Shown here piece after piece: positions 31,242 through 35,461 of a DNA stretch of 64,000 nucleotides. The stretch is from the NCBI GenBank assembly GCA_023954415.1, contig JAMLIB010000010.1, positions 1 through 64,000 of the forward strand. Direction: 5' to 3'. Positions within the stretch are counted from its first letter, which is position 1, and each line of letters opens with the position of its first letter. The position numbers and the translations under genes were made by a program. Origin of the DNA: Trueperaceae bacterium (GTDB lineage: Bacteria > Deinococcota > Deinococci > Deinococcales > Trueperaceae). The notes beneath the pieces were generated by a model. It saw only the letters and a program-made list of their open reading frames with translations. It searched no databases and was not told the origin of the DNA.

Positions 31242-32399
<1,158 letters not shown>

Positions 32400-32466
32400 G
32401 GATAAACCGCGCCAGCACGCGCTTTCTCGTCTCGCGCGTCACGGGGTTCGTGGTACAAGTAGCGCC

Positions 32467-33309
32467 ATGGCCAGGATAGTTCTGGGCAATCGTGAGGGCC
32501 TACTCGCCATCCGTCACGGTCGCAGCGTGCTCGAGTTCCTCACGGACGAGTGGCCCGACCTCCAACTGCGCCTCCGCACCGTCCCGAAGACCGGCGGTCA
32601 GGAGAGCGGTCCCCTCTTGCAGGCCCTCGCGAGCGGCGAGGTCGGGATAGCCGTCGCTCAACTGGAATGCCTCCCACCCGCCTTGCCGGACGGCATCAGG
32701 CTGGCCGCCGTCGTACGCCGGGGCGAGCCGCGCTCCGCGCTGGCCTCCAAGGGCAAGGGCGACCTCCGGGCCTTGCCCGCGACAGCGCGCATCGCCGTCA
32801 CGTCCGAGCGCGACGGCGCGTTCCTGAGGGGGATCGATCCGGGCTTCCGGGTCGAGGTGGACGCCTCGGCACCGGACGCGCTCCTCGCGCGGGTCGGGAC
32901 GGGGTTCGACGCCGCCGTCCTCCCCGCCGCCACGCTCGTCACCCTGGACCTCCGGAGCGCCATCGACGTTGTGCTCGAGGAGACCGTGTTCGCGCCGGCC
33001 CCCGGGCAGGGCGCCGTCGGGCTGCTCGTGCGCGACGACGACGACCTGGCCTTCGAGACCGCCTACTCCCTGCAACATCGGCCCAGCTTCGACCGCGTGC
33101 GGGCCGAGCTGGCTTTCGCCGCCGAGCTGCCAGACATGCACGTCGGCTCCGTCGCGTGGGTGACCGAGGACGGCGAGCTGACCCTGTTCGGCTCGGTCGC
33201 GCGCGACGGCACCGTCCTGCAGGCCTACGTCACTGGCGAGGCACGCGAGGGCGCGGAGCTCGGCCGCGAGCTAGCGAAGGACGTCCGCGAGCAGCTGGCG
33301 CGCGCCTGA
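32467..33309 (+). CDS. Hydroxymethylbilane synthase-like protein lacking catalytic residues
   Basis: The 280-residue protein aligns over its whole length with porphobilinogen deaminase (HemC): RIVLGNREGLLAIRH at the start, LVVRRGEPRSALAS-like block near 80-95, PAPGQGAVGLLV near 178-188, and a C-terminal third domain. The key residues are gone. The AVHSxKD block reads AVAQLEC, so the catalytic Asp is Cys68 and the preceding Lys is Glu67. The SSLRR motif reads TSERD. RGNxxTRL is absent. The loop LEGGCQVPIG, which holds the dipyrromethane cofactor by its Cys, reads LPDMHVGS with Met224. It is therefore unlikely to make hydroxymethylbilane. The true function is unknown. A weak -10 (TACAAG) lies 7 bases before ATG 32467. 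Confidence 0.85.
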   Translation: MARIVLGNREGLLAIRHGRSVLEFLTDEWPDLQLRLRTVPKTGGQESGPLLQALASGEVGIAVAQLECLPPALPDGIRLAAVVRRGEPRSALASKGKGDLRALPATARIAVTSERDGAFLRGIDPGFRVEVDASAPDALLARVGTGFDAAVLPAATLVTLDLRSAIDVVLEETVFAPAPGQGAVGLLVRDDDDLAFETAYSLQHRPSFDRVRAELAFAAELPDMHVGSVAWVTEDGELTLFGSVARDGTVLQAYVTGEAREGAELGRELAKDVREQLARA

Positions 33310-33409: not shown

Positions 33410-35461
33410 TCAGGACGCGACGCGGGCCTGCTTCGCGTCGGCCATGACCTTCTCGGCGACCTGCGCTGGCACCGCCTCGTAGCGGTCGATCTTCAACGAG
33501 TAGGCGCCGCGGCCGCCCGTCATGCTGCGGAGGTCGGCCGAGTACGCCTGGATCTCGGCGAGCGGCACGTGCGCGCTGACCACGCTCACCGAGCCCTCGG
33601 TGTCCATGCCGAGGATGCGCCCGCGGCGCGTGTTCAGGTCGGAGATGACGTCGCCCGTGAAGCGGTCGGGCACGCGCACCTTCAGCAGGACGAGCGGCTC
33701 GAGCAGGATGGGCTTCGCCTGTAGCAAGGCCTCGTGCATGGCCTGCGTGGCGGCGAACTGGAAGGCGATGTCCTTCGAGTCGACCGGGTGGTCCTTGCCG
33801 TCGTAGACGCTGACCTTGACGTCCTGTAGCGGGAAGCCGCCAAGCACGCCTGACTCCATGCCGGCGCGGGCGCCCTTCTCGCAGCTCGTCTGGAACTGCG
33901 TCGGGATGGTGCCGCCCACGACCTTCCACTCGAACTCGAACCCGGCGCCGCGCGGCGTGGGCTCGACCGTGAGGGCCACCTCGGCGAACTGCCCGGCGCC
34001 GCCCGACTGCTTCTTGTGCCGGTAGCGGGCGTCGCCCTTGCCCTGGATCGTCTCCCGGTACGCGATGGCGGGCAGGCGCGTCTCGACCTCTACGCCGAAG
34101 CGGTCCTTGAGGGCCGCCACCGCGATCTCGAGGTGGACGTGGCCCATGCCCCAGAGCACCGCCTCCTTGGTGTCGGGGTTGCGCTCCAGCTTGAGCGTCG
34201 GGTCGGCATCGAGGACCTTGGCGAGCGCGTCGCCGAGCTTGTCCTCGTCCGAGCGCGCCTTCGGGAACAGCGCCAGCGCCATCACGGGCGACGGCAGGCG
34301 GATGGGCGCGAGGACGAACTCGGCGCCGGGCGCCGTGAGCGTGTCGCCGGTGCGCACTTCCTCGGCCTTCGTCAGCGCGCCGATCATGCCGGCCGAGAGC
34401 CGCTTCACCTCGGTCAGGTCCTTGCCACGGGGCACGAAGATGTGCGACGTGCGCAGGTCGGCGCCGTTGGAGGCGTCGCGCAGAGGCTCACCGGCGTTGA
34501 GCGCGCCGGATAGCACGCGCATGAACGACACCTTGCCGAGGTACGGGTCGACGACCGTCTTGAAGACGCGGGCGCTGAACGGCTGCCCCTCGCCAAGGAC
34601 GGGCGGATCGCCCGACTCGACGGGCAAGGGGCCGTGGTCGTGCACGTGCCGCACGCCGCGGGTCAGGAAGTCGAGCAGGAGGCTGATGCCCATGACCTTC
34701 GTGGCCGAGGTCAGGAGGACGGGCGTCAGCTCGTGCCGCAGAACGGCCGCGTAGAAGGCCGCGAGCAGGGCGTCCTGGTCGATCTCGGCCTCCTCCAGGT
34801 ACTGCAGCATCAGCTCGTCGTCCGTCTCGACGACGGCCTCGACGAGCCGGTCGCGGTACTCGCGAGCCAATCCCTCGACCTCCGCCGGGAGCGGCACCTC
34901 GACCGGGGTCGTGCCGTCCGGCCACTCGTAGGCCCGCATGGTCAGGAGATCGACGATGCCCCTGAACTCCTCCGCCTGGCCGATGGGGATCTGGATGGCG
35001 GCTATGTTGCCGGGCAACGTCGCCTCGATGTCGGCCATCGTGCGGAAGAAGTCGGCGTTCTCGCGGTCCATCTTGTTGATGACGACCATGGTGGAGAGCT
35101 CGCGCTCCAGGCTGGACGTCCAGACGCGCTCGGTGCCGACGGCCACGCCGGACACGGCGGAGACGACGATGACGGCCGCGTCGGCCGCGGCCTGGGCGCC
35201 GCGGATCTCGCTCACGAAGTCCGCGTAGCCGGGCGTGTCGATGACGTTGAACTCCTCCCCCTTCCAGGTGAAGGGGTGGATCGTCGAGTAGATGGAGATC
35301 TTGCGGCGCTTCTCCTCGGCCGTGACGTCCGAGACGCTCGTGCCGTCCTCCACCTTCCCGAGCGTCTGGATGGCGCCGGCGCGGAACAGGATGGCCTCGA
35401 CGAGCGACGACTTACCCGCGCCGCTGTGCGACAAGACAGCCACGTTGCGGATCTGGGACAT
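33410..35461 (-). CDS. Elongation factor G-like GTPase (EF-G2 type)
   Basis: This translational GTPase paralogue has 683 residues. G1 is SHSGAGKSS (residues 10-18), G3 is IDTPGYADF and G4 is NKMD. Domains II to V of EF-G follow, with the C-terminal RSMTGGRGAYSL block. Switch I lacks the usual RGITI motif and reads RRKISI, as in the EF-G-2 group (the Thermus thermophilus structure 1WDT belongs to it). This is not the main EF-G, which usually sits with rpsL and rpsG. GGGAG precedes ATG 35461. It is divergent from the CYTH gene. Confidence 0.92.
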   Translation of the reverse strand: MSQIRNVAVLSHSGAGKSSLVEAILFRAGAIQTLGKVEDGTSVSDVTAEEKRRKISIYSTIHPFTWKGEEFNVIDTPGYADFVSEIRGAQAAADAAVIVVSAVSGVAVGTERVWTSSLERELSTMVVINKMDRENADFFRTMADIEATLPGNIAAIQIPIGQAEEFRGIVDLLTMRAYEWPDGTTPVEVPLPAEVEGLAREYRDRLVEAVVETDDELMLQYLEEAEIDQDALLAAFYAAVLRHELTPVLLTSATKVMGISLLLDFLTRGVRHVHDHGPLPVESGDPPVLGEGQPFSARVFKTVVDPYLGKVSFMRVLSGALNAGEPLRDASNGADLRTSHIFVPRGKDLTEVKRLSAGMIGALTKAEEVRTGDTLTAPGAEFVLAPIRLPSPVMALALFPKARSDEDKLGDALAKVLDADPTLKLERNPDTKEAVLWGMGHVHLEIAVAALKDRFGVEVETRLPAIAYRETIQGKGDARYRHKKQSGGAGQFAEVALTVEPTPRGAGFEFEWKVVGGTIPTQFQTSCEKGARAGMESGVLGGFPLQDVKVSVYDGKDHPVDSKDIAFQFAATQAMHEALLQAKPILLEPLVLLKVRVPDRFTGDVISDLNTRRGRILGMDTEGSVSVVSAHVPLAEIQAYSADLRSMTGGRGAYSLKIDRYEAVPAQVAEKVMADAKQARVAS

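Follow-up and report, generated by a model that had tools for sequence, protein, structure and literature searches.

Pseudoenzymes as such are well known. A literature search of partial coverage (titles and abstracts) returned no cofactor-less bacterial hydroxymethylbilane synthase (HMBS) and nothing relevant on HemC pseudoenzymes or paralogues. The closest described system for the protein analysed here is E. coli HemC (structures 1pda and 2ypn; families PF01379 and TIGR00212). In HMBS, dipyrromethane is contacted by S81, K83, D84, R132, and R155, and R131L/R132L affect cofactor binding and render the enzyme inactive (PMC3945110). Class II periplasmic-binding-protein-like folds (PqqT, MetQ, LysR effector domains, HisG) are weakly similar to the two-domain part of our protein (E about 1e-7, TM 0.4–0.5), whereas HMBS structures are far closer to it.

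The protein, HemC1, is encoded in the window, by which we mean the whole stretch of 64,000 nucleotides of Trueperaceae DNA that was analysed. It shares with E. coli HemC the three-domain fold (TM 0.9), the APGQG region, the domain 3 framework, and the equivalents of R11 and R131, but lacks the cofactor cysteine, the catalytic Asp, and the active-site loop, has inverted charges at K83 and R132, and falls below the cut-off of the HemC family model TIGR00212. The following features are referred to below.

31242..32399, + strand: metK, S-adenosylmethionine synthetase, directly upstream of hemC1 (adjacent in 27/27 Trueperaceae loci)
32451..32459, + strand: extended −10-like motif TGGTACAAG, 7 nt before the ATG, its sixth base not T
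32467..33309, + strand: HemC1, predicted pseudoenzyme, cofactor-less HMBS homologue of 280 aa (profile, structure, and active-site comparison)
32665..32670, + strand: codons E67-C68, corresponding to E. coli K83-D84; residue 67 is D/E in 25/25 Trueperaceae, residue 68 is variable
32809..32814, + strand: codons R115-D116, corresponding to E. coli R131-R132; D116 in 25/25 Trueperaceae, R in all active enzymes
33127..33144, + strand: LPDMHV, codons 221–226, by alignment what is left of the shortened loop that carries the cofactor cysteine in E. coli (C242)
33410..35461, − strand: elongation-factor-G-like GTPase, convergent and downstream, near HemC1 in most Trueperaceae loci

Gene, fold, and active site of HemC1

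The 280-aa open reading frame (32467–33309, +) is a real gene, and its ATG start agrees with 26 orthologues beginning (M)(A/P/S)RIV or RIL. The sequence-only reading had described an intact gene of ordinary codon use, and this description fits its GC3 (0.90) and its CAI-like value, which at 0.62 is close to that of the neighbouring GNAT gene (0.64) and above that of the antisense read (0.46). Likewise, its reported adjacency to metK recurs on the same strand, with a gap of 20–411 bp, at all 27 Trueperaceae loci. A sigma-70 scan found no classical promoter upstream of hemC1. A TACAA/TACAT-type −10-like motif lies 5–8 nt upstream of the ATG in 22 of the 27 loci, which makes read-through from metK less likely as the only route of expression. 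Leaderless transcripts are common in the phylum, and a leaderless −10 motif (TANNNT) has been described there (PMC12340547). The upstream motifs suggest that hemC1 may be expressed from a leaderless transcript of its own.

By homology the product belongs to the HMBS family. Pfam PF01379 matches it with E=1e-19 (71 bits vs a cut-off of 22), and the best matches of a PDB sequence search were all HMBS/porphobilinogen deaminases; the NCBIfam hemC model TIGR00212 scores 91.9 bits, below its 164-bit equivalog cut-off. An AlphaFold model from an alignment of 25 orthologues reached a mean pLDDT of 93.6. Its best 32 Foldseek matches are all HMBS structures (TMq about 0.85–0.91), with a TMq of 0.90–0.91 to E. 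coli HMBS. The HMBS fold is intact in this model, and the full HemC framework with all three domains, as claimed earlier, was borne out by profile, model confidence, and structural match. Judged by eye, the product has neither the secretion signal nor the lipobox of a periplasmic binding protein, and its N-terminus (MARIVLGNREG) forms the first strand of the HMBS fold.

Twenty-two key positions were audited in E. coli numbering across 25 aligned Trueperaceae orthologues. The numbering follows an E. coli HemC sequence that agrees with 1pda over the stretches compared, apart from one domain 3 residue outside the audit. Trueperaceae HemC1 proteins keep 3–6 of the 22 residues, compared with 19–20 in intact HemC1 and 18–20 in the canonical HemC2. 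The window protein keeps five, namely R11 (its R9), S129, R131 (R115), Q198 (Q181), and A200, as well as the APGQG motif. It has lost C242, D84, K83, R132 (now D116), R149, R155, and R176, and its flexible active-site loop (roughly residues 48–62 in E. coli, with K55, K59, and F62) is for the most part deleted, so that it is not an ordinary HMBS, as had been proposed. The SSLRR and RGNxxTRL arginines had also been called gone; R132, R149, R155, and R176 are lost, but R11 and R131 are not, Q198 remains too, and among the basic residues R11, K83, R131, R132, R149, R155, and R176 only R11 and R131 are kept.

The E(G/A)GCQ cofactor loop is about three residues shorter, and the cofactor Cys (C242) is absent from 25/25 aligned Trueperaceae orthologues, its column being non-conserved (P/A/S/G/R/E and others). 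Met224, previously read as the replacement of the Cys, is private to the window protein and its nearest relatives, and with a shortened loop and a variable column there is no clean substitution. Cys68 does align with D84, as had been stated, and orthologues carry T/R/S/A/C/E/G/Q at this position and in Trueperaceae never Asp; the conserved change is, however, K83 to D/E at residue 67. K83 to D/E and R132 to D are fixed in 25/25 Trueperaceae. Because the former catalytic positions around them drift freely, these two changes look selected rather than decayed.

Retention of the R11, R131, and Q198 equivalents and of APGQG might be taken to indicate an HMBS that still works by unusual chemistry without a cysteine-bound cofactor. 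This is scarcely credible given the loss of the cofactor cysteine, D84, K83, R132, R149, R155, R176, and the active-site loop, and given that the window genus has neither a HemB that would provide porphobilinogen nor a HemD or HemE that would consume the product. The residues that dead and active forms have in common could have been kept by the demands of the fold alone. HemC1 of the window is very probably non-enzymatic, and its active-site residues would predict zero catalysis.

Distribution, phylogeny, and selection

The Trueperaceae set (family f1) comprised 39 genomes, among them the window genome (G000) and its genus (g1; G000 and G018–G022). HemC1 is full-length in 27 of the 39 and a fragment in one. 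Canonical HemC accompanies it in 17 of these 28 genomes and occurs alone in nine, while two of the 39 genomes searched have neither. That the window protein is an oddity of one species was rejected in view of the 27 full-length orthologues. HemC1 was not found in the 91–96% complete Trueperaceae genomes G002, G024, G025, G028, G033, G037, and G038, nor in G068 or G044; it is dispensable, being missing from several near-complete genomes.

Genome groups in the wider phylum carry labels, such as Thermus-type, that are inferred assignments. HemC1 is the sole HemC found in Thermus-, Oceanithermus- (G049, O. profundus), and f2-type genomes, with intact active sites in the copies examined. It is degenerate and has lost the Cys (hereafter dead) in Trueperaceae, two genera of the related family f3, and Meiothermus-type genera. 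Most genomes with dead HemC1 also carry a second, canonical HemC (HemC2, adjoining hemD-hemB), and the cultured Truepera radiovictrix (G036) and Meiothermus ruber (G069) each hold a dead and a live copy. No second HemC was found beside dead HemC1 in the window genus, four incomplete g4 MAGs, G035, G046, G074, and G081; where dead HemC1 occurs without HemC2, the heme pathway or the assembly is incomplete too. G046 (f3) and G074 (f5) have dead HemC1 without HemC2 or HemB and are possible further heme auxotrophs or cases of assembly gaps. The working HemC of genus g28 (L132 in G063, L133 in G064) belongs to a third type, distinct from the other two, which points to a gain by horizontal transfer. 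The Thermus-type hemC1 genes L122 (G090) and L124 (G099), from two species, carry an identical homopolymer frameshift (G6 to G5, near codon 44), probably a sequencing error, although slippage could also account for it.

In the tree, the HemC1 sequences group together with support of 100/99, apart from HemC2 and the E. coli sequence. The search for a clade with Met at the Cys position, proposed in the sequence-only reading, yielded by tree and residue audit a clade without the Cys that spans Deinococcota, of which Met is not the marker. The intact Thermus/Oceanithermus-type HemC1 proteins, whose genomes yielded no other HemC, belong to the same orthologous lineage as the dead window copy and share with it lineage residues such as W29, D192-D193, Y200, F217, and D272. 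Dead copies occur at two places in the HemC1 tree, f1 plus f3 (100/97) and g27–29 (100/100), the latter (Meiothermus-type) beside intact Thermus-type copies of the same family. Constraining all dead HemC1 into one group cost 21.9 log units (AU p = 0.077), so a single death was not formally rejected by the gene tree. Gene tree plus taxonomy favour at least two independent deaths, since a single one would need transfer between families. The dead HemC1 of M. ruber and M. silvanus (G061), a separate death from that of the Trueperaceae copies by the same evidence, resembles the window copy in its lost Cys, shortened active-site loop, and purifying selection, and a second HemC is present in the genome. 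Unlike the window copy, it keeps R132 and mostly K83, and its linked neighbour is a fur-like gene, not metK.

NG86 dN/dS ratios are 0.13–0.33 for pairs of Trueperaceae HemC1, 0.05–0.09 for dead Meiothermus-type pairs, and 0.08–0.16 for intact Thermus-type pairs. Between the window genome and G021, the ratio is 0.13 for HemC1 and 0.11 for metK; metK was used for this pair only, because the other extracted metK sequences were cut short or out of frame. Dead HemC1 copies are under purifying selection about as strong as live ones, and the earlier claim that the gene is selected agrees with the 0.05–0.33 seen across dead copies. HemC1 combines a kept fold, lost catalytic residues, and purifying selection, the signature of a pseudoenzyme. 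A slowly decaying relic, i.e. a redundant HemC that became inactive after HemC2 took over and is not yet deleted, would be consistent with the outright loss of HemC1 from several Trueperaceae genera, G044, and G068, and with catalytic positions that vary freely in Trueperaceae. It was already disfavoured by dN/dS values well below 1, those of dead Meiothermus-type copies being like those of intact Thermus-type ones, and we consider it unlikely also in view of open reading frames that are intact in 27/27 full-length Trueperaceae loci of at least 12 genera, of new invariant acidic residues, and of a HemC1 kept in a genus without the pathway.

Heme pathway of the window genus and the role of HemC1

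In a family-by-family profile search, GluTR, HemB, HemD, HemE, and any other HemC were not found in 6/6 genomes of the window genus, which are 91–98% complete and include a single contig (G020). All six encode heme-copper oxidase subunit I and CtaA-family proteins, and three encode ferrochelatase. From this gene content, the genus is predicted to be an aerobic heme auxotroph. A hidden intact hemC in the window genome was rejected by searches of this genome and its relatives. Most of the genomes are MAGs, and clustered hem genes could vanish with one missing contig; an assembly gap that conceals a canonical hemC is nevertheless very improbable with absence from 6/6 genomes, the single-contig one included, and with models that readily match other Trueperaceae genera. 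The sequence-only reading was to be given up if a heme-making genome proved to have no other hemC; the other hemC is indeed absent, but the genome does not appear to be heme-making. As HemC1 survives in this genus, its job needs no tetrapyrrole synthesis in the same cell.

This bears on a regulatory or accessory role in heme synthesis, in which dead HemC1 would bind a tetrapyrrole intermediate or HemC2 and tune the pathway. HemC2 is present in 17/28 Trueperaceae with HemC1, and a second HemC in most dead Meiothermus-type genomes. In Thermus/Meiothermus/Oceanithermus-type genomes, both intact and dead HemC1 also adjoin a gene for a Fur-family regulator; at the f4/f5 loci (L106–L127) such a gene follows live or dead hemC1 in most cases, and folC is often present. 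Such a role is rather improbable, however, for a protein that selection maintains in all six genomes of a genus lacking GluTR, HemB, HemC2, HemD, and HemE and whose carboxylate-binding cleft is inverted in Trueperaceae. Heme sensing by HemC1 in the auxotroph is possible.

We think it probable that HemC1 is a pseudoenzyme, an ancestral Deinococcota HMBS freed from catalysis where HemC2 is present and kept for a non-catalytic job; as part of this explanation, HemC1 is likely the ancestral HemC lineage of the phylum. Less surely, this job may be to bind a ligand or a partner through the two-domain cleft together with domain 3. In Trueperaceae, the exchanges K83 to D/E and R132 to D appear to have turned the cleft from basic to more acidic; such a cleft should not be able to bind the poly-carboxylate dipyrromethane any more, and its ligand may be another one, possibly cationic. 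A binding protein is our favoured guess rather than a finding, and the SAM/polyamine area, suggested by the constant metK neighbour, would be a first guess at the ligand field only. It is conceivable, though doubtful, that a second function of the ancestral HMBS outlived two deaths and the loss of the upper heme pathway, the acidic Trueperaceae cleft being re-tuned for a new, perhaps cationic, metabolite.

Beyond the earlier reading, the analysis contributes the history of HemC1 across the phylum, its probable repeated deaths, the charge inversion, and the absence of the heme pathway from the window genus. The dead HemC1 copies L097 (G061), L127 (G076), and L028 (G027) score above the TIGR00212 cut-off (190.8–248.2 bits). 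The model labels several dead copies as genuine hydroxymethylbilane synthase, and heme-pathway predictions in Deinococcota can therefore be wrong. With HemC1 kept after loss of the pathway, and with cultured species that hold both copies, the question of a second function becomes directly testable.
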